A DNA stretch of 64,000 nucleotides, taken from contig JAGXGC010000007.1 in assembly GCA_024636935.1 (NCBI GenBank), positions 45,794-109,793 of the forward strand, in the 5' to 3' direction. A program made the translations under genes and the position numbers. This DNA is from Sideroxydans sp. (GTDB taxonomy: Bacteria > Pseudomonadota > Gammaproteobacteria > Burkholderiales > Gallionellaceae). The stretch's first letter is position 1, and every line of letters begins with the position of its first letter. Shown here piece by piece: positions 16,371 through 63,798 of this stretch. The notes below the pieces were generated by a model. The model made no database searches. It was given only the letters and a program-made list of their open reading frames with translations, and had not been told where the DNA came from.

Positions 16371-16405
16371 TATATAGGCCGATATATAGGCCATTTGGCA
16401 TATTG
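16371..16405 (+). promoter_or_regulatory. Dyad-like intergenic motif, site A (two ATATAGGCC boxes + GGCATATTG)
   Basis: Two tandem ATATAGGCC boxes are followed by ATTT and GGCATATTG, ending 68 bp upstream of the CZB gene start. The last box and GGCATATTG form an imperfect palindrome with a 4-nt centre. The same arrangement occurs at 41561, 51704 and 63762 (reverse), always in the same orientation relative to the downstream gene. Confidence 0.6.
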
Positions 16406-16473
16406 TTTCTCAGTTCGCCCGCGGCGCAGAATGACTTGGAAATTCGGGTCTTTATGCAGGAGGGTAAGTCATC

Positions 16474-16884
16474 ATGAAACTGATCGACGATCTGGTGCGG
16501 CCTAAGTCCGTTCCGCTAGTGCGATTCAACGGCATCCGCGCCATACAAGAGCATATCAATCAACGCTCTCAGGTTGAAGCCTATGTTCAAGGCTACTCGT
16601 CTATCAAACCGGAGTTGACGGAGGGATGTTGCAAAGGATGCACGCTTGGAGAGTGGCTGCATGGTGAGGGCGCAAGGTATTTCTCGGATGTGATTCTGCT
16701 GAATGAACTGCAAGAGAGTTGTTATGAGTTTCACGAAGCAGCCTCCCAAGCTGTGTTGCTGGTCGATCTTGGCAAGCGTGAAGCTGCCATAACTATAGTA
16801 CGTGGCAGTCGCTTGTTCAAGGATGCCTCGGATCGTTATCAATCCAATCTTGCCAAGCTGCATCTGGCATTCGAGATGTACTAA
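16474..16884 (+). CDS. Stand-alone CZB (chemoreceptor zinc-binding) domain protein
   Basis: This is a 136-residue soluble protein consisting of one CZB-type four-helix domain, which in other proteins senses zinc or hypochlorite at the end of chemoreceptors and diguanylate cyclases. The core motif GCTLGEWLHGEG is clear (Cys56). His27 and His87 are plausible ligands. Where the family usually has HxxxH, this protein reads CYEFH (Cys83-His87), so one histidine ligand may be replaced by cysteine. It converges on the chemoreceptor gene at 17044-19134, which lacks a CZB domain, so the two may act together. Motif site A lies upstream. Confidence 0.75.
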   Translation: MKLIDDLVRPKSVPLVRFNGIRAIQEHINQRSQVEAYVQGYSSIKPELTEGCCKGCTLGEWLHGEGARYFSDVILLNELQESCYEFHEAASQAVLLVDLGKREAAITIVRGSRLFKDASDRYQSNLAKLHLAFEMY

Positions 16885-30397: not shown

Positions 30398-30482
30398 GCG
30401 AAAGTGGCGGAATTGGTAGACGCACTGGATTTAGGTTCCAGCGCCGCAAGGCGTGAGAGTTCGAGTCTCTCCTTTCGCACCA
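30398..30482 (+). tRNA. leuW: tRNA-Leu, anticodon UAG
   Basis: This 85-nt class II tRNA reads CUN leucine codons. The acceptor stem is GCGAAAG/CTTTCGC with discriminator A and an encoded CCA end (30480-30482). The anticodon arm reads CTGGA-TTTAGGT-TCCAG (anticodon TAG), followed by a long variable arm and the T-loop TTCGAGT. It marks the left edge of the accessory region and is a plausible integration site, though no duplicated tRNA end was found downstream. Confidence 0.96.
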
Positions 30483-41560: not shown

Positions 41561-41590
41561 CATATGGATATAGGCCAATCGGCATATATG
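41561..41590 (+). promoter_or_regulatory. Dyad-like intergenic motif, site B, upstream of hsdM
   Basis: ATATAGGCC-AATC-GGCATAT lies 65 bp upstream of hsdM in the same orientation as sites A, C and D. Only one ATATAGGCC box is present here. CATATGG precedes it, and the 3' end reads GGCATATATG rather than GGCATATTG. Confidence 0.55.
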
Positions 41591-41654
41591 TCTTGAGGCC
41601 CCTTCGTGCTAGCATCCGGCGATAAAACAACACGCTACATAACAGGGTCGCCGC

Positions 41655-43277
41655 ATGCATTGGATCGCACCAACCGAACGAGATACCGTCACCGACACCA
41701 TTGAAAAGCGCTTGTGGGATGCAGCCGACCAGTTCCGTGCCAATTCCGGGCTGACTGCAGCGCAATATTCCGCCCCGGTGCTGGGCCTCATCTTCCTGCT
41801 GTTTGCCGAATCGCGCTTTACCAAGCGCCGCAAGGACCTCGAATCTGCCGGCGTATCCTCGCGCCGCTCGACCAGCCGTGTGGACGATCCTGCCGCTTAC
41901 CATGCCGAGGGCGTGATGTACCTGCCCGAAGCCGCACGGTTCGCACATCTGCTCAACCTGCCGGAAGGGGCCAACATCGGCCAGGCCATCAACGAGGCCA
42001 TGGATGCCATCGAGAAGCACAACCCGCAACTGGCGGGCGTGTTGCCGCGCACCTTTCAAATCTTCACCAGTACCTTGCTCAAAGAGCTGCTGAAAAAGAT
42101 CTCCGAGATCCCCGTGAGCACCGGCTATGACGCCTTCGGCCGCATCTACGAATACTTCCTCGGTGAATTCGCCCGCACAGAAGGTCAAAAGGGCGGCGAG
42201 TTCTACACCCCCAGCTCCATCGTGCGCCTGCTGGTGGAAGTGATACAGCCATTCCACGGACGCATCCTCGATCCCGCTTGCGGCTCCGGCGGCATGTTCG
42301 TCAGCAGCGCGCGCTTTGTGTCAGAGCACAAGAAGAATGCCGCCGACGAACTATTCATCCACGGCGTGGAAAAGACCGACGACACCGGACGCCTGGCGCG
42401 CATGAACCTCGCCATCCACGGCCTGGAAGGCGACATCCGCCACGGTGGACACATCAACAGCTACTACGACGACCCGCACGAAGCCGTCGGCAAGTTCGAT
42501 TTTGTCCTCGCCAATCCGCCGTTCAACGTCAACGCCGTGGACAAGGACAGGCTGGCCTCGGACGTTGGCACAGGCCGCCGTTTCCCCTTTGGTGTGCCGC
42601 GCACCGACAACGCCAACATGCTGTGGATACAACTGTTCTATTCCAGCCTGAATGCCCAAGGCCGCGCCGGATTCGTCATGGCGAATTCCGCCAGCGATGC
42701 GCGTGCCTCTGAGCAGGAGATCCGCAAACAATTGATTGAAGCCCGCGCCGTGGACGTGATGGTCGCCGTCGGCCCCAACATGTTCTACACCGTCACGTTG
42801 CCTTGCACGCTGTGGTTCCTGGATAAGGGTAAGCAGGGCACGTCACGCGCCGACACCATTCTTTTCATTGATGCCCGCCACATCTACCGCCAGATCGATC
42901 GCGCCCATCGCGATTGGGCGGATGCGCAGATTGGTTTCATCGCCAATGTCGTGCGCCTGTATCGCGGCGAAGCGCCGGACTACACCTTGGGCGGCGAGGA
43001 AGCCAAGGTCAAGCTGGTGGAAGTGTTTGGCAAGAAGCCAAGCTATGCCGACATTCTCGGCCTGTGCAAAGCCGCCACCCTCGCCGAAATCGAAGCGCAA
43101 GGCTGGAGCCTCAATCCCGGACGGTACGTCGGCGTGGCGGCGGGTGAAGAAGTCAGTGATGAAGATTTCAAGGAAAAACTGGAAGCGCTGAACGAGGAAC
43201 TGGAAGTGCTGAATGCACAAGCGCGCGAACTGGAGCAAACCATCGCGCAGAATGTCGCTGAGATTCTGGAGGCATGA
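41655..43277 (+). CDS. hsdM: Type I restriction-modification system, DNA methyltransferase subunit
   Basis: This N6-adenine methyltransferase subunit of a type I system modifies the host recognition site. The 540-residue protein has the N-terminal HsdM domain ([22 protein letters not shown]), the AdoMet motif [10 protein letters not shown] and the catalytic NPPFN. It ends with a coiled-coil stretch ([22 protein letters not shown]) that contacts HsdS. The hsdS ATG overlaps its stop by four bases. Motif site B sits upstream. GC content is higher than in the preceding mobile-element genes. Confidence 0.96.
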
Positions 43278-47007: not shown

Positions 47008-50000
47008 ATGAGTCCCAGTCCATATAACGAGGATAGCCTGGTCGAACAACCTGCAATCCAGCTCTTTGCCGAGCTGGGCTGGGAGACATTGTCAGCGTCT
47101 GAAGAGGTGATGGGGGCGAATGGCACGTTGGGCCGCGAGACGAAATCCGAGGTGGTGCTGGCTGCGCGCTTGCGTAGTGTGCTGGCGCGGCTGAATCCAT
47201 CACTGCCGCCAGAAGCAATTTCCGCAGCCGTGGATGAGCTGTCGCGCGACCGTTCCGCGATGTTGCCAGCAGCCGCGAACCGATATCTTTGGGCGTTGAT
47301 GCGCGACGGCGTGAAGGTGTCGGTGCCCGATCTGGCAAGAGGTGGCCAGAAAGACGAGCGGGTACGGGTGGTGGACTGGGATAACCCAGCAGCCAACGAT
47401 TTCCTGCTGGTGAGCCAGATGACCATCGTCGGCCAGCTCTATACCTGCCGCCCGGATTTGATTGGTTTTGTGAATGGCCTGCCGTGGGTGGTGATCGAGC
47501 TGAAGAAGCCGGGCGTGCCGGCCAAACAGGCGTTCGATGGCAACCTGACGAGTTACAAGCATGCACAGAACGGCGTTCCCGCGCTGTTCTGGTCGAATGC
47601 CGTGCTGATTGCTTCAAATGGCACGGATAGCCGCGTCGGCTCGCTGACTGCCGACTGGGAGCGGTTCTTCGAGTGGAAGCGCATCGAGAGCGAGGACGAG
47701 CCGCGCCGCGTGTCGCTGGATGTGATGTTGCGCGGACTGTGCGAGCCGTCGCGTCTGCTTGATCTGACTGAAAACTACACGCTGTTTTCCGAGCACAAGA
47801 GCGGGCTGACCAAGATCATCGGGCAGAACCATCAGTTCATCGGCGTGAACAATGCCATCCGCGCCATGCTGAAGGCGCGCGAGGAAGGCCACGGGCGCGG
47901 CGGCGTGTTCTGGCAGACGCAGGGTTCCGGCAAGAGTTTTTCCATGGTGTTCTTCGCGCAGAAAGTGCTGCGCAAGATCCCGGGCAACTGGACATTCGTG
48001 GTTGTCACCGACCGGGTGGAGCTGGACGAGCAGATTGCCAAGACCTTTGCGGCTTGTGGGGCGGTAAGCGATGCGACGGCTTGCCATGCGCAGAGCGGGG
48101 CGCAGTTACGCGAGCTGCTTTCCGGCAATAACCGCTATGTATTCACCTTGATCCACAAGTTTCAATCTGCCGAGGTGCTGTGCGACCGGCGCGATGTAAT
48201 CGTGCTGACCGACGAGGCACACCGCAGCCAGTACGACACGTTGGCGTTGAACATGCGCGCGGCACTGCCGAATGCCATGTTCGTTGCCTTCACCGGCACG
48301 CCGCTCATCGCGGGTGAAGAGCGCACGCGCGAGGTGTTCGGCGATTACGTTTCCATCTACGATTTCCAGCAGTCCGTCGAGGATGGCGCGACCGTGCCGC
48401 TGTTCTATGAGAACCGCACACCAGAGCTTCATCTCGACAATCCCGACCTGAACGACGACATCTATGACCTGATCGAGAACGCCGACCTATCGGATGACGC
48501 CGAGAAGAAGCTGGAGCGCGAGCTGGGGCGGCAGTATCACCTCATCACCCGCGATGATCGGCTGGATACCGTGGCGCAGGACATTGTGAGACATTTCCTA
48601 GGGCGGGGATTCCAGGGCAAGGCGATGGTGGTTTCCATCGACAAGGCTACCGCGCTGCGTATGTACGACAAGGTGCAGAAGTATTGGAAGATCGAGCTGG
48701 AGAATCAGCAAAAAGAGATCGAGAAGTGGAATGATCTTCCGGGATACGTGGGGACGCTTGATCCTCAAGACAGTCCGGAAATGATGCACGAAGAGGAATT
48801 GGAAGCGCGTCTGGACTACCTTGCGGAAACCGATATGGCCGTGGTGGTCTCTGCGGGTCAAAACGAGATCGAGCAGATGGCGAAACTGGGCATCGACATC
48901 GTGCCGCACCGCAAGCGCATGCTCGATGAAAAGCTGGACGAGAAGTTCAAAGACCCCAATGACCCATTGCGCCTCGTGTTTGTGTGTGCGATGTGGCTGA
49001 CTGGCTTTGATGCACCAAGCTGCTCTACGGTGTATCTGGACAAGCCAATGCGGAACCATACCCTGATGCAGACCATCGCCCGTGCCAACCGCGTGTATGC
49101 CGGCAAGCAGAGCGGCTTGATCGTGGACTACGCCAATGTGTTCGCTTCGCTGGAGAAGGCACTGGCGATCTATGGACAAGGGGGCGGCGGTGAAATGCCG
49201 GTGCGTGATAAGAAGGCGCTTGCGGACGAGCTGCGCTATGCCGTGAATGACGCGAACATGTTCTGCCTGGAGCTCGGCATCTCCTTGGCCGAGATTGAGA
49301 ACATGCAAATGGCCAACTTTGCACAGGCGGGGGCGATCCAGACGGCAGCCGACCGACTGATGGCCCCGGAGTCGATCAAACGTGACTTCCTGGCGCTGGA
49401 AGCATTGGTGAATAGTTTGTATCGTGCGGTGAAGCCCGATCCGGTTGCGATAGAGTTTTCACAGCGTTGCGGTTGTCTTGCCGCGATATCCGAATGCATC
49501 CGTACCGTGACCGACCCGCCGGATATTTCCCATATCCTGCAGGGGATTCAGGATTTGCTTGATGACTCTATCGCGGCAGAGCCATTCAAAATTCGGCAAA
49601 AGACATCGGCCTATGGCCAGATCGATCTTTCCAAAATCAACTTTGAAGCGCTACGCAAGCGTTTCGAGAAAAAGAAGCCCAGCAATACAGACATCGAGCG
49701 GTTGAAGGCTGCCGTGCGTGCGCAGCTTGAGCGCATGGTGCGACTCAATCCTACCCGAGCAGACTATCTGGCGAAGTTCCAGGAGCTCATCGAGGGCTAT
49801 AACTCGGGGAGCCGCAATATCGAGGAGATACTCAAGGAACTGTTGGCGCTGTCGCAGGTGCTGACGGATGAACAGACACGGCATGTGCGCGAGCACCTGT
49901 CCGAAGAAGAGTTGACCATCTTCGACATCCTGACTCGCCCAGCGCCGGATCTCACCACCGAAGAGCGGGATGAGGTGAAGAAGATCGCTCATCATTTGCT

Positions 50001-50205
50001 GGAGAAATTGAACAAGCTGCTGGTGCTTGGCTGGCGGCAGAAGATTTCCACCCGCGCCCGCGTGAAGATCGAGATCGAAAATGCTCTGGACGAAGCCTTA
50101 CCCCGCGCGTATTCCAAGGAACTGTACGAAGCCAAGTGCTCGGCTGTGTTTGAGCATGTGTATCAGAGTTATCAAGGGGAAGGGCGGAGCGTTTACGCTG
50201 CTTGA
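47008..50205 (+). CDS. hsdR: Type I restriction-modification system, restriction subunit
   Basis: This is the endonuclease and translocase subunit that cleaves unmodified DNA. The 1065-residue protein has the PD-(D/E)xK nuclease region near residue 150 (RPDLIGFVNGLPWVVIELKKPG), the motor with Walker A GGVFWQTQGSGKSFS, the DEAH box (VLTDEAHRSQYDTLAL), FTGTPL and the helicase motif VI TIARANRVYAGKQSG, then a helical C-terminal domain. It is intact and separated from hsdMS by three accessory genes. The 121-bp gap before it suggests its own translation start and possibly its own promoter. Confidence 0.96.
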   Translation: MSPSPYNEDSLVEQPAIQLFAELGWETLSASEEVMGANGTLGRETKSEVVLAARLRSVLARLNPSLPPEAISAAVDELSRDRSAMLPAAANRYLWALMRDGVKVSVPDLARGGQKDERVRVVDWDNPAANDFLLVSQMTIVGQLYTCRPDLIGFVNGLPWVVIELKKPGVPAKQAFDGNLTSYKHAQNGVPALFWSNAVLIASNGTDSRVGSLTADWERFFEWKRIESEDEPRRVSLDVMLRGLCEPSRLLDLTENYTLFSEHKSGLTKIIGQNHQFIGVNNAIRAMLKAREEGHGRGGVFWQTQGSGKSFSMVFFAQKVLRKIPGNWTFVVVTDRVELDEQIAKTFAACGAVSDATACHAQSGAQLRELLSGNNRYVFTLIHKFQSAEVLCDRRDVIVLTDEAHRSQYDTLALNMRAALPNAMFVAFTGTPLIAGEERTREVFGDYVSIYDFQQSVEDGATVPLFYENRTPELHLDNPDLNDDIYDLIENADLSDDAEKKLERELGRQYHLITRDDRLDTVAQDIVRHFLGRGFQGKAMVVSIDKATALRMYDKVQKYWKIELENQQKEIEKWNDLPGYVGTLDPQDSPEMMHEEELEARLDYLAETDMAVVVSAGQNEIEQMAKLGIDIVPHRKRMLDEKLDEKFKDPNDPLRLVFVCAMWLTGFDAPSCSTVYLDKPMRNHTLMQTIARANRVYAGKQSGLIVDYANVFASLEKALAIYGQGGGGEMPVRDKKALADELRYAVNDANMFCLELGISLAEIENMQMANFAQAGAIQTAADRLMAPESIKRDFLALEALVNSLYRAVKPDPVAIEFSQRCGCLAAISECIRTVTDPPDISHILQGIQDLLDDSIAAEPFKIRQKTSAYGQIDLSKINFEALRKRFEKKKPSNTDIERLKAAVRAQLERMVRLNPTRADYLAKFQELIEGYNSGSRNIEEILKELLALSQVLTDEQTRHVREHLSEEELTIFDILTRPAPDLTTEERDEVKKIAHHLLEKLNKLLVLGWRQKISTRARVKIEIENALDEALPRAYSKELYEAKCSAVFEHVYQSYQGEGRSVYAA

Positions 50206-51703: not shown

Positions 51704-51740
51704 CGATATATCGGCTGTATATAGATATTTCGGCATATTG
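51704..51740 (+). promoter_or_regulatory. Dyad-like intergenic motif, site C, upstream of the GGDEF-EAL gene
   Basis: ATATATCGGC, TATATAGATA and TTTC-GGCATATTG are arranged as in site A, ending 208 bp upstream of the GGDEF-EAL start codon and in the same orientation. An AGCGGACACT box lies about 55 bp further upstream (51645-51654). The remainder of the 51615-51947 gap shows no gene. Confidence 0.55.
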
Positions 51741-51947
51741 ACCTCGCTGCAAGGGCGGGGTAGGTTTCGGCAGTCAACAACCCGAATGGTCGCTTTATAT
51801 GAACATCTACCCAATGGGGATTCGAGGCTCTGATTGTTCGTTCTGAAATGAGTAGTTCGCGGCTGGTAGAGAATAAATCGCAAGTATTTAGTCGGCCAAA
51901 TTAAACCGCTGAACCCAGCTTGGCAGCGGATAAATGAAAAGATCAAC

Positions 51948-53552
51948 ATGCCTATAAAGTCATATCACTTTTTTCTACGTGTGCTGAATCGGATCATTCG
52001 CGGGCTGCTTAACCTGTCAAATTTGCAAGTAGGCGCGCTGTTGGTAACAACAGCAGTGCTTGTTTCGATGGTGCTCGTTTCAATCATAGACTTGTTATGG
52101 GACGGCCGGTTCAATGCCGAACTGCAATTCGCTGGGATCGTTGTTCCATTGATCGACGGAGTTCTAATCGTTGGATTGCTGTTGGCGTTGCTCGGCGAGT
52201 TGCGTGACGAGATGAACAAACTATTGGTTGCGCAGGAAACCATCAGCAATCTGGCGTCCTACGACCCGCTTACCGGACTGCCTAATCGTCGACTTCTTGT
52301 AGATCGTATTCACCAGGCATTCGCCTTCAGCGCGCGTAGCGGTCTGGAAGGTGCGCTACTGTTCATTGATTTGGATAATTTCAAGGACATCAACGACACC
52401 CTTGGGCATGACATCGGTGATCAACTGCTGCAACAGACCGCGAAACGCCTGAAATCATGCATGCGCGAGGGCGATACTGTGGCGCGCATAGGGGGTGATG
52501 AGTTCGTCGTGATTTTGGAGAGCTTGAGCAAGCAACCTATCGAAGCCGCAAAAAAAGTGAAGACTTTCGGTGAAAGGATCCTCGCCACGCTCAACCAGCC
52601 GTATCAGCTTGGCCCGCACGAGTATCAAAGCTCATCCAGTATCGGCGCTACGCTTTTCAGCAATCACCTGCAGTCGGGTGAGGAGCTGCTGAAACAAGCA
52701 GATATCGCCATGTATCAAGCCAAGAAATCAGGCCGCAATATGCTGAAATTCTTTAACCCGGAGATGCAGGACATTATCAATACCCGCTCAATTCTGATTG
52801 GCGAACTGCGCCATGCCCTTGAAAACAACCAATTCAAATTGTTCTATCAGATTCAGACTGACAGCTCACATAAACCATTCGGGGCAGAAGCGCTGATCAG
52901 ATGGGAGCATCCCGAGCATGGCTTGGTGCCACCTGACCAATTTATACCGCTGGCTGAAGAAACCGGACTTATCCTGCCTATCGGCCAATGGGTGCTGGAA
53001 ACTGCTTGCGCCCAACTCGAAACGTGGAAGCAAAGCGAACTTACTCACGAACTCATTCTTTCAGTAAATGTCAGTGCCAGGCAATTCCACCAGACAGATT
53101 TTGTCGCACAAGTGCAAGCTGCCGTTAGCCATCACGCCATCAACCCGGCTCTGCTCAAGCTGGAGCTTACTGAAAGCATGTTGCTGGAGGAAATAGAAGA
53201 AACCATCGCTCGGATGAGCGCTTTGAGAAAAATTGGAGTTCAAATTTCATTGGACGACTTTGGCACCGGCTATTCATCACTGCAATACCTCAAACGGCTG
53301 CCGCTCAACCAGCTAAAGATCGATCAATCGTTCGTGCGCGACGTTGCCATTGACGAAAACGATAAGGCGATTGTGGGGACCATCATTGCCATGGCGCACG
53401 GCCTGAACTTGGATGTCATTGCAGAGGGCGTAGAAACGGAAGAGCAACGACAACTTCTCTTCATGAATGGCTGCAAGCACTACCAAGGGTATTTATTTGG
53501 CAAACCAGTGCCGATAGAACAGTTTGAGATCTTGTTGCAGCACCCGAAGTGA
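51948..53552 (+). CDS. Membrane-bound GGDEF-EAL c-di-GMP protein
   Basis: This is a bifunctional-type cyclic-di-GMP signalling protein. Two membrane helices (VGALLVTTAVLVSMVLVSIIDLLW and VVPLIDGVLIVGLLLALLGEL) are followed by a GGDEF domain with an intact GGDEF site (182-186) and DPLTGLPNRRLL. The EAL domain has EAL at 314-316, LILSVNVSARQ and LSLDDFGTGYSSL-like ISLDDFGTGYSSL, so both synthesis and hydrolysis motifs are present. There is no separate sensor domain beyond the membrane part. It may control motility or attachment. Motif site C upstream hints at shared control with the CZB gene. Confidence 0.93.
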   Translation: MPIKSYHFFLRVLNRIIRGLLNLSNLQVGALLVTTAVLVSMVLVSIIDLLWDGRFNAELQFAGIVVPLIDGVLIVGLLLALLGELRDEMNKLLVAQETISNLASYDPLTGLPNRRLLVDRIHQAFAFSARSGLEGALLFIDLDNFKDINDTLGHDIGDQLLQQTAKRLKSCMREGDTVARIGGDEFVVILESLSKQPIEAAKKVKTFGERILATLNQPYQLGPHEYQSSSSIGATLFSNHLQSGEELLKQADIAMYQAKKSGRNMLKFFNPEMQDIINTRSILIGELRHALENNQFKLFYQIQTDSSHKPFGAEALIRWEHPEHGLVPPDQFIPLAEETGLILPIGQWVLETACAQLETWKQSELTHELILSVNVSARQFHQTDFVAQVQAAVSHHAINPALLKLELTESMLLEEIEETIARMSALRKIGVQISLDDFGTGYSSLQYLKRLPLNQLKIDQSFVRDVAIDENDKAIVGTIIAMAHGLNLDVIAEGVETEEQRQLLFMNGCKHYQGYLFGKPVPIEQFEILLQHPK

Positions 53553-54488: not shown

Positions 54489-55826
54489 ATGGGGCAGGCT
54501 GGATTGATCGGGTTCATGCAGGTCAGCATCGTCATGCTGGTGATCGGCTTTGCGGTGCTGTTGCTGATGGTGCAGTTCGAGCTGGGGCCGCTGGGCGGGA
54601 TGTCCACCGGAAAGAAATGGCTGCTGTCGCTGATACTGGGTTCCGGCATGGTGGCGTTCTCGATCAAGCTGTTTGTCATCGCCATGCTGGTGAATTTCCC
54701 CGAGCATACGATCAGGGCGCAACTGGCCGCGCAGTCGGTGCGGCCGGCAGTCTTGCGACAACCCGCGCAAGCAGCCCGCAGTGTTCAGCCGCCGAGCGTG
54801 CGCAAGGGCTACGTCTGGCGCGCCTTGCCCGATGTCGCACCTTCTCCGGCGTGGAACCCGACCACACCGGAAAAGGTCGTGCTGGGCGAACGTCTGTTCC
54901 ATGACAAGGCGCTGTCAATCGACCGCACAATCTCGTGCAGTTCCTGTCACGAGGTGCGGCGCGGCGCGGGCATGGATGGTCGTCGCGCCTCGCTGGGGGT
55001 GGGCGGGCAGCTCGGCGCACGCAACGCGCCGACGGTGTGGAATGCCGCTTTCCAGTCCGTGCTGTTCTGGGACGGTCGCGCCCCATCGCTGGAAGAGCAG
55101 GCGAAAGGTCCGCCGCTGAATCCGAAGGAGATGGGCATGCCGTCGCTGGAGGCCGTGGCGCAGCGCGTGCGCGAAGGCGATGGCTATCGGGAAATGTTCG
55201 ATGCGGCCTTCGGTGCCGCGCAGCCGATCACCATCGACCGCATCGTCGCCGCCATCGCCGCCTACGAGCGCACGCTGATCACGCCGGACGCGGCCTACGA
55301 CCGTTTCGTGCGTGGAGACGAGTCGGCATTGAGCGCGGCGCAACTGCGCGGGATGGAGTTGTTCCAGTCGGTTGGCTGCATCCAGTGCCACTCCGGTCCC
55401 AATTTCAGCGGGGCCAGCGTGTTCGATCCGTCGCCTTCGCCGCAACGCCTGTTTCCGGTGTTCGCCGCGCAGAAATATGTAGATCGTTACAGTCTGACCA
55501 GCGATGTCGGCGCCAATGTCCCCGGCAACAAACAGGGCGTCTGGCGCATTCCGTCGCTCAGGAACGTCGCGTTGACTGCGCCATATTTCCACAACGGCAG
55601 TGTTGACAGTCTGCGGGAGGCGGTGCGTATCATGGCGACCGTGCAGCGCGGCAGGGAGATCGGCAACGATGCTAACGGCAACAGACGCATCTTGTGGTCG
55701 AAGCAGGACAGGACGATCTCGCGCGTCGGCGCTGCTCCGTTGAGCGAGAGCGACGTGGACGACATTGTCGAGTTCCTGAAGTCCCTGAGCAGCGAATCGC
55801 TCGCATTGCGCAACAGGGGGTCGTGA
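54489..55826 (+). CDS. Membrane-anchored di-haem cytochrome c peroxidase (CCP/MauG family)
   Basis: This is a probable periplasmic peroxidase reducing H2O2 with electrons from cytochrome c. Two N-terminal hydrophobic helices (about 5-30 and 38-60) replace the usual signal peptide. The peroxidase domain has two haem motifs, CSSCH (150-154) and CIQCH (297-301), with FWDGRAPSLEEQA and SLRNVALTAPYFHNGS as in CCP/MauG proteins. The double-helix N-terminus is atypical and would anchor it in the inner membrane. It is the first gene of a plus-strand cluster with cupin, C_GCAxxG_C_C and Crp/Fnr genes. Confidence 0.9.
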   Translation: MGQAGLIGFMQVSIVMLVIGFAVLLLMVQFELGPLGGMSTGKKWLLSLILGSGMVAFSIKLFVIAMLVNFPEHTIRAQLAAQSVRPAVLRQPAQAARSVQPPSVRKGYVWRALPDVAPSPAWNPTTPEKVVLGERLFHDKALSIDRTISCSSCHEVRRGAGMDGRRASLGVGGQLGARNAPTVWNAAFQSVLFWDGRAPSLEEQAKGPPLNPKEMGMPSLEAVAQRVREGDGYREMFDAAFGAAQPITIDRIVAAIAAYERTLITPDAAYDRFVRGDESALSAAQLRGMELFQSVGCIQCHSGPNFSGASVFDPSPSPQRLFPVFAAQKYVDRYSLTSDVGANVPGNKQGVWRIPSLRNVALTAPYFHNGSVDSLREAVRIMATVQRGREIGNDANGNRRILWSKQDRTISRVGAAPLSESDVDDIVEFLKSLSSESLALRNRGS

Positions 55827-56729: not shown

Positions 56730-57407
56730 ATGAGCGGCGCAAAGTCCATGAACGAACTGCGGACGCTGGGCGTCTTTCGCGAACTGTCCGCCACTGGTCA
56801 GCAGATGCTCGAATGCGGCATGCAGCTCAACCGCTTCGACGAGCTGAAGACCATCATCAACAAGGGCAACAGCGTGGCTGGTGCCTATGTCGTGGTGCGC
56901 GGCCGGCTGCGCGTCTACTCGATCTCACCGGGCGGCAACGAGGCCACGTTGTACTTCATCAATCCGGGCGAGGTCTGCATCCTCGCGCTGAACTGCATCT
57001 TCAACAACCTGCAATACCCGGCCTGGGTGCAGGCCGAGCCGGACACCTGCGTCGGCGTGATTCCATCGCTGACTTACCGCACGCTGTTCCAGACCGAACC
57101 CTCCATCCAGAACCTCACCGTGCATGCGCTCTCGGTGCTGGTATTCAGGCTGATGGAAGAGCTGGAAGAAGTGCATGCGCTCAACCTGAACGAGCGTCTG
57201 GCCAAGTTCATCCTGATGCGCTCGGAAGCCGACGGCCAGTTGCGCATGACGCAAAGCGAACTGGCCGCGCACCTTGGCACCACGCGCGAAGTGGTCGCCA
57301 AGCTGCTGCGCCGGATGGTGGCCGACAGGCTGATCCAGACCGGGCGCGGCACGATCCGGGTCGCACGGCGTGAGGTGTTGGCGCGCTTGCTGGATGCGGC
57401 GGGATGA
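56730..57407 (+). CDS. Crp/Fnr-family transcriptional regulator
   Basis: This 225-residue regulator has an N-terminal cyclic-nucleotide-type beta barrel (GNSVAGAYVVVRGRLRVYSISPGGNEATLYFINPGEVC) and a C-terminal winged helix (MTQSELAAHLGTTREVVAKLLRRMVADRLI). The cysteines (LECGM, EVCILALNCIF, DTCVG) are not arranged as in Fnr, so an iron-sulfur cluster is not predicted. It probably controls the adjacent peroxidase/cupin cluster, which is inferred from position. Confidence 0.88.
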   Translation: MSGAKSMNELRTLGVFRELSATGQQMLECGMQLNRFDELKTIINKGNSVAGAYVVVRGRLRVYSISPGGNEATLYFINPGEVCILALNCIFNNLQYPAWVQAEPDTCVGVIPSLTYRTLFQTEPSIQNLTVHALSVLVFRLMEELEEVHALNLNERLAKFILMRSEADGQLRMTQSELAAHLGTTREVVAKLLRRMVADRLIQTGRGTIRVARREVLARLLDAAG

Positions 57408-62952: not shown

Positions 62953-63651
62953 TTACTGCTTGTCTGTTGCTGGTTTTATTGGAATCGGTGCTTTGAAACT
63001 TCGGTATTGCTGCGAATTGAAATCAGGGCAAGCCACCACCGAATCCGCAGTTCTCACCGGCTCCCTCAGGATGGTTTTGTATTCCGGCGTGCTGATGGGG
63101 CGGTTCTGCGCATCCACTTGACCTGCGGTATAAAAAGACCTCAACAAGCTTGAAGCAGGCCTGCCGACAATCACATTGGCCGATGTGTCAATAAGCACCT
63201 GCGGCAATTCGTCCAGGGTGATGCGCTTCCACTGCTTGTCCTCGTACTTGAACAAGACCTGCGGCGGATTGGGTCTGCCCCATTTATTGTAGGAGATGCA
63301 ACCCGCCGGGTAGGTGGCGAGATAGGGCACGCCGCTGACGACATCGAAACGGAAGTGGTTGAGGCTGTTCGGCTCTGGCACTGAATCGCGGAAGTCGTTT
63401 TTCCAGACGACGCTTTTGTTGTCCGGCAGGTTGAAGGTGACGGTTTCATTCAACGGCGTACGTTCAGAGCTGTCCAGATAGGCAAATCCACCAAGGTTGT
63501 AATTACGCTCTGACATAATCACCTTCCCGTCATGCAGCTTCACTTCTTCCTTCCACCGCATCGACGATGAACATGCGCTGATGGTGGAACCAAGCAGCAA
63601 GACCAATCCCAGCTTCGCTAGACGCTTCATAATTTCGTTTTGCTTGCTCAT
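62953..63651 (-). CDS. Hypothetical lipoprotein
   Basis: This is a 232-residue secreted lipoprotein of unknown function. From the ATG at 63651, preceded by GGAAGGACTTGGT, it has a signal peptide with a lipobox (LLLGSTISAC) and a mature part rich in mixed strands (KLHDGKVIMSERNYNLGGFAYLD). The start in the ORF track (63720) precedes the signal peptide and is rejected. Motif site D lies about 110 bp upstream in matching orientation. Confidence 0.7.
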   Translation of the reverse strand: MSKQNEIMKRLAKLGLVLLLGSTISACSSSMRWKEEVKLHDGKVIMSERNYNLGGFAYLDSSERTPLNETVTFNLPDNKSVVWKNDFRDSVPEPNSLNHFRFDVVSGVPYLATYPAGCISYNKWGRPNPPQVLFKYEDKQWKRITLDELPQVLIDTSANVIVGRPASSLLRSFYTAGQVDAQNRPISTPEYKTILREPVRTADSVVACPDFNSQQYRSFKAPIPIKPATDKQ

Positions 63652-63761
63652 ACCAAGTCCTTCCAAGTAGTCGTATCCGCAACGATGCTGTTGGGTTGAT
63701 CTGGGAGTTGGGGCTACCAAACTTGTTGATATCGAAACCTATCTCGCCATTGCAGTGGGGT

Positions 63762-63798
63762 CAATATGCCATTTGGCCTATATCCGGCCTATATATCC
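63762..63798 (-). promoter_or_regulatory. Dyad-like intergenic motif, site D, upstream of the lipoprotein gene
   Basis: Read on the minus strand: ATATATAGGCC, then GG-ATATAGGCC-AAAT-GGCATATTG, nearly identical to site A including both ATATAGGCC boxes. It points towards the lipoprotein gene, 111 bp from its ATG. Confidence 0.6.

Follow-up and report, generated by a model that had tools for sequence, protein, structure and literature searches.

The DNA analysed here, a 64,000-nt stretch of a Sideroxydans sp. contig (hereafter the window), raises the question of why one short sequence recurs ahead of four different genes. With up to three mismatches allowed, exactly four matches to ATATAGGCC-N4-GGCATATTG are found in the window, whereas shuffled sequences lead to an expectation of 0.04 and gave one match at most. 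The four copies reported by the first-pass annotation are all confirmed at their places (Table 1). The gene that it had seen downstream of each is also there, at a distance of 69 bp (CZB), 66 bp (hsdM), 208 bp (GGDEF-EAL) and about 110 bp to the ATG (lipoprotein); these distances, based on heuristic calls of the longest ORFs, may be off by tens of bases. The second, TATAGGCC-like box that it had noticed upstream of three sites is found at 12 bp in the first site, at 11 bp in the fourth, and in degenerate form in the third. The product of the CZB gene scores slightly under the curated Pfam cut-off (E=1e-5); its orthologues retain the site, and the predicted -10 is kept in those at L115-L118. 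For the lipoprotein-like product no Pfam family was found.

Table 1. Positions of sites, predicted promoter elements, target genes and other features in the window.
Feature	Position	Strand	Remarks
Predicted activator dyad before CZB gene	16384..16405	+	exact motif; -35 overlaps at 16403-16408
Extra TATAGGCC half-box, CZB promoter	16373..16380	+	same direction, 12 bp upstream of main box
Predicted -10 CAGAAT, CZB promoter	16427..16432	+	one base beyond the usual 42 nt; from sequence, conserved in orthologues
CZB (chemoreceptor zinc-binding) single-domain protein, target gene	16474..16884	+	Pfam CZB
tRNA-Leu	30398-30482		adjoins island
Island	~30400-51600
Predicted activator dyad before hsdM	41568..41589	+	2 mismatches; mobile-element backbone
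Predicted -10 TAGCAT, hsdM promoter	41610..41615	+	from sequence; homology with G006 element stops just past it
hsdM, target gene	41655..43277	+	Pfam N6_Mtase and HsdM_N; followed by hsdS, further on hsdR (47008-50205)
Predicted activator dyad before GGDEF-EAL gene	51719..51740	+	3 mismatches, left half degenerate; -35 TTGACC at 51738-51743
Predicted -10 TAGGTT, GGDEF-EAL promoter	51761..51766	+	17-nt spacer; position profile
GGDEF-EAL protein, target gene	51948..53552	+	Pfam
Di-haem cytochrome c peroxidase/MauG-like protein	54489-55826		near GGDEF-EAL gene
Crp/Fnr-type regulator gene	56730-57407
Lipoprotein-like gene, target	62953..63652	-	signal ending ...STISAC
Predicted -10 TAGGTT, lipoprotein promoter	63736..63741	-	17-nt spacer; position profile
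Predicted activator dyad before lipoprotein gene	63762..63783	-	exact motif; -35 TTGACC at 63759-63764

The motif is not confined to the window. The 2.70 Mb genome holds 12 matches (up to three mismatches) against one for a reversed-pattern control; two of the 12 (L010 and L011) look like chance, which leaves about ten real sites, and this one contig accounts for four. All 25 genomes of the genus that were searched carry the motif, in 2-21 copies (control 0-2), and 16 genomes from other families of the order are near control level. Distribution within the Gallionellaceae is patchy, with about 20 copies in some genomes and none in others. Orthologous promoters in different species hold the site while the flanking sequence diverges. 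Of the 58 collected sites that could be scored, 48 are directed towards the gene that follows (p=2e-7), in line with the orientation noted for the window, and several of the remaining ten precede a small RNA gene. The many copies could also mark small repeats dispersed as a family, or mobile sequence in decay, with no part in regulation, for which the first-pass annotation had named copies in all orientations and within decayed intergenic repeats as the telltale sign. A few perfect palindromes in gaps, which could be terminator stems (L074, L152), would fit such a family. This picture is not what is seen: the shared part comprises only about 22 bp and a distant -10, with no repeat body, the orientation is strongly biased (48:10), sites are conserved at orthologous promoters despite diverging flanks, and the fixed distance of the -10 already contradicts it. 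A repeat family is therefore very improbable. The palindromes themselves, ATATAGGCC-N4-GGCCTATAT, lie in intergenic gaps (L074:6711-6732 and L152:5711-5732) and may function either as terminators or as symmetric binding sites.

The architecture of the sites was derived from an alignment of 67 non-redundant sites, which remained after removal of near-duplicates and had been collected without use of the -10 region; loci found with a pattern containing TA at -10 were left out of the -10 statistic. Downstream of the motif there is one clearly conserved feature, TAnnnT, 42 nt from the motif start (36 of 67 sites at offset 42, eight more at 41 or 43, average of other offsets 0.56). From its letters and its position TAnnnT is the predicted -10 element. 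Counting back over a 17-nt spacer leads to motif positions 19-24 for the -35 hexamer; the sequence most often found there is TTGAC, and the right end of the motif overlaps this TTGAC-like -35. Symmetry is at its maximum at 10.5 in motif coordinates, i.e. at the centre of a 7-2-7 inverted repeat of heptamers, TAGGCCR-NN-YGGCATA, which ends one base before the -35. The constant 4-nt spacing between the halves claimed earlier holds, but these four positions are not free: they mostly read R-(TT or AA)-Y, and the dyad continues through them. Also, 21 of the 67 sites have a same-direction TATAGGCC box no more than 45 bp upstream, mostly 11-12 bp away; a control stretch taken downstream has none. Assuming a transcription start 7 nt past the -10, the centre of the dyad falls at about -43.5. 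With the dyad centre at 10.5, the -35 at 19-24, the -10 at 42-47 and the spacing fixed, the arrangement is that of a class II promoter, in which the centre of the dyad lies near -41.5 to -44.5. The data support a promoter core in which a predicted activator dyad is set against the -35 of sigma-70 promoters in the class II position. The original alternative of a transcription-factor site or a promoter element of a regulon with both core and accessory genes thus resolves into both, the putative activator dyad being joined to the promoter -35.

The sign of regulation is not readable from sequence alone, and a site overlapping the -35 in the manner of many operators might belong to a repressor blocking otherwise ordinary promoters. 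We regard this as improbable, for scores of promoters share one fixed spacing to -35 and -10, which class II contact requires and blocking does not. The -10 and -35 elements are mostly weak (TAGGTT, TACAAT, TATGTC), as expected of activated promoters, and the closest relatives of the candidate regulator described below activate from this very position.

An activator dyad in this position has known counterparts. At ogt of E. coli the 7-2-7 site of NarL is centred at -44.5 and abuts the -35, and at NarL class II promoters (ogt, yeaR-yoaG) an inverted repeat so placed suffices for activation (PMC7419079). The NarL heptamer is TACYYMT as opposed to TAGGCCR, and no nitrate link was seen here. In CrbR/ErdR of Pseudomonas and Vibrio an imperfect inverted repeat, the ACTU repeat at -52 to -36, stands immediately before the RpoD promoter and is needed for activation (PMC5715377). 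The ACTU letters, e.g. TACTACCATCGTCGAAT, are unlike TAGGCC, and the known targets of CrbR/ErdR, acetate-use genes, were not found among the targets here. Because the geometry of both NarL and CrbR/ErdR is like that of the dyad, GerE-domain regulators were sought.

This genome encodes five GerE-domain proteins, all of them response regulators, and AHL-type LuxR proteins were rejected as the binder on this ground. The motif segment ATATAGGCCATT fits what we take to be the consensus of GerE of Bacillus subtilis, RWWTRGGYNNYY, and we treat this as a lead only. GerE consists of nothing but a LuxR-type DNA-binding domain and is a sporulation regulator of Firmicutes, a setting unlike that of the present host. 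Occurrence profiles were compiled for four of the five GerE proteins (L172, L173, L174 and L176) and for the Crp-type L208. The best fit is L173, present in 17 of 18 site-rich as against 2 of 12 site-less genomes (p=2e-5, kinship ignored; the threshold between the two classes was chosen after looking, and all six thresholds tried were significant). Over 100 family genomes the mean number of sites is 6.35 with an L173 orthologue and 1.52 without (p=3e-9), and within genus g22 it is 5.42 versus 0.50 (p=3e-5), kinship being ignored in both comparisons. Two zero-site genomes (G061 and G091) are exceptions in that they possess the orthologue, and the site-rich, 91%-complete G118 seems to be without it. 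The best L173 match in zero-site G075 and G080 is 43-44% identical and has an internal stop in the reading frame. As for the other regulators, the Crp-type L208 of the Crp/Fnr family is missing from many site-rich genomes, the profiles of L172 and L174 do not fit the site distribution, and L176 shows a weaker association than L173 (17 of 18 site-rich, 6 of 12 site-less).

The L173 gene (L173:1033-1731; G000:C27:18389-19084), whose presence goes along with that of the sites, is located directly upstream of ftsK, and in the neighbourhoods compared it lies between bio genes and ftsK. Its product combines the domains Response_reg and GerE. The best NCBIfam model, RR_TF_ErdR, a further likeness to CrbR/ErdR, gives 127.4 bits against a cut-off of 390, i.e. 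L173 is a relative and not a member; the second, NarL, gives 121.8 bits against a cut-off of 250, below the level of a NarL orthologue. NarL is also the best PDB match. Orthologues show hardly any variation in the LAEGTVK stretch of the recognition helix. In some species a kinase gene adjoins L173; it encodes a hybrid kinase nearest to the NahK/ErcS family. No motif site was found at L173's own locus, and a Pfam scan of about 70 site-adjacent genes for autoregulation revealed no transcription regulator behind a site. The perfect palindromes at L074, L152 and L153 were considered as autoregulatory sites and dropped, as no regulator gene came with them; they may instead be stems of terminators.

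Taken together, the motif is probably the site of a dimeric NarL/FixJ-type activator, with the ErdR/NarL-like L173 as the most likely protein. A different activator, from another HTH family or L175, might instead use the same class II site, the ftsK-linked regulator merely having been lost in the same lineages; the profiled set consists of GerE proteins and one Crp-type regulator, L176 associates as well if more weakly, and G061, G091 and G118 depart from the L173 pattern. We consider such a substitute unlikely, since the 7-2-7 layout suggests a NarL-type protein, L173 fits best among the profiled GerE proteins of this genome, and its association holds inside one genus. With L173 as the activator, a presumed signal would lead to its phosphorylation, the kinase being perhaps the NahK/ErcS-type hybrid whose gene adjoins L173 in some species. 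Phosphorylated L173 would then bind, as a dimer, to the 7-2-7 repeat directly against the -35, in many cases alongside a third half-box roughly one helical turn upstream of the dyad, and would recruit RNA polymerase to a scattered regulon of c-di-GMP enzymes, chemoreceptors, secretion and adhesion proteins, mobile-element cargo and a conserved small RNA.

Genes next to the sites in different species include, on the signalling side, CZB, MCP-CZB, GGDEF-EAL, GGDEF-hemerythrin and HD_5 (HD-GYP-like) proteins and a class III nucleotide cyclase. Transport and surface functions comprise TpsB (ShlB), HlyD, an ABC exporter, secretins, ExbB-type channels and an FG-GAP/Ig protein; further site-adjacent genes encode a Tle1-like phospholipase, HsdM, a type ISP restriction enzyme and a TerB protein. 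Judging from the gene names, we infer a theme of signalling and surface life. For the L067/L086 product, a PilZ assignment made by eye alone was discarded, as Pfam gave nothing. Before a two-partner-secretion gene (L062:6769-6890, G000:C2) the site is followed by a -10, a short stretch with the terminator-like hairpin GCTGGCGATTATCGCCAGCTTCTTTTT, and then the gene; this stretch is possibly an attenuator or a second small RNA.

TraI_2 and MobI genes belong to the backbone on which the hsdM site sits. A relative, G006, shares both this backbone and the promoter, with a TerB gene behind the latter, and nucleotide homology between the window and the G006 element ends at window position 41616, right after the -10. 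The promoter is therefore taken to be part of the element, with different cargo behind it. The surrounding island carries genes for a ThiF/E2-type protein, an AAA ATPase, a subtilase, TraI_2, MobI and a complete type I restriction system, and the related element with other cargo is found in G006 at L090. No second copy of the tRNA-Leu 3' end was found as a repeat within the window.

In the gap between prmC and argH the site and its -10 are followed by a predicted RNA of about 85 nt (L066:6762-6850, G000:C27), composed of a stem, a near-invariant single strand, ACUCUCCUCC, and a terminator. The sequence ACUCUCCUCC is complementary to Shine-Dalgarno sequences. The RNA has 13 distinct copies in four genera (g1, g18, g22 and g26), each with a site ahead of it (beside L066 these are L031, L073, L076, L102, L122, L148, L304, L306, L315, L317, L318 and L319). 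Its predicted fold is much more stable than that of shuffled sequences (z=-5.1), and the pairs of the terminator stem are kept by a compensatory change at one position. Rfam gave no hit at gathering threshold. The best sub-threshold matches, sroB and mmgR, share with it (as ChiX/sroB and mmgR) a pyrimidine-rich anti-Shine-Dalgarno single strand ahead of the terminator, and differ from it in that the small RNA falls well short of their gathering thresholds (24.6 of 44 and 20.5 of 41 bits, respectively). The small RNA thus appears to be undescribed and to form a new family.

The -10 element, the 7-2-7 symmetry, the candidate regulator, the small RNA and the mobile-element backbone all go beyond the first-pass annotation. 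In the literature searched, neither a regulon nor a binding motif turned out to be defined for the iron-oxidising Gallionellaceae, despite the wealth of c-di-GMP and sensory genes in their genomes (PMC3770913). Our analysis yields a defined cis-element, a candidate regulator by name, a list of targets and a putative new small RNA family. It is plausible, and we would put it no higher, that these belong to an undescribed two-component regulon of the Gallionellaceae, in which an ErdR-like regulator whose gene neighbours ftsK turns on functions of sessile and surface life together with an anti-Shine-Dalgarno small RNA and mobile cargo. If so, the small RNA would retune the translation of many messages. 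Exchangeable mobile-element cargo, here a restriction system, sits behind the promoter of this candidate host regulon, and any cargo that the element puts after its own promoter copy would join the regulon.
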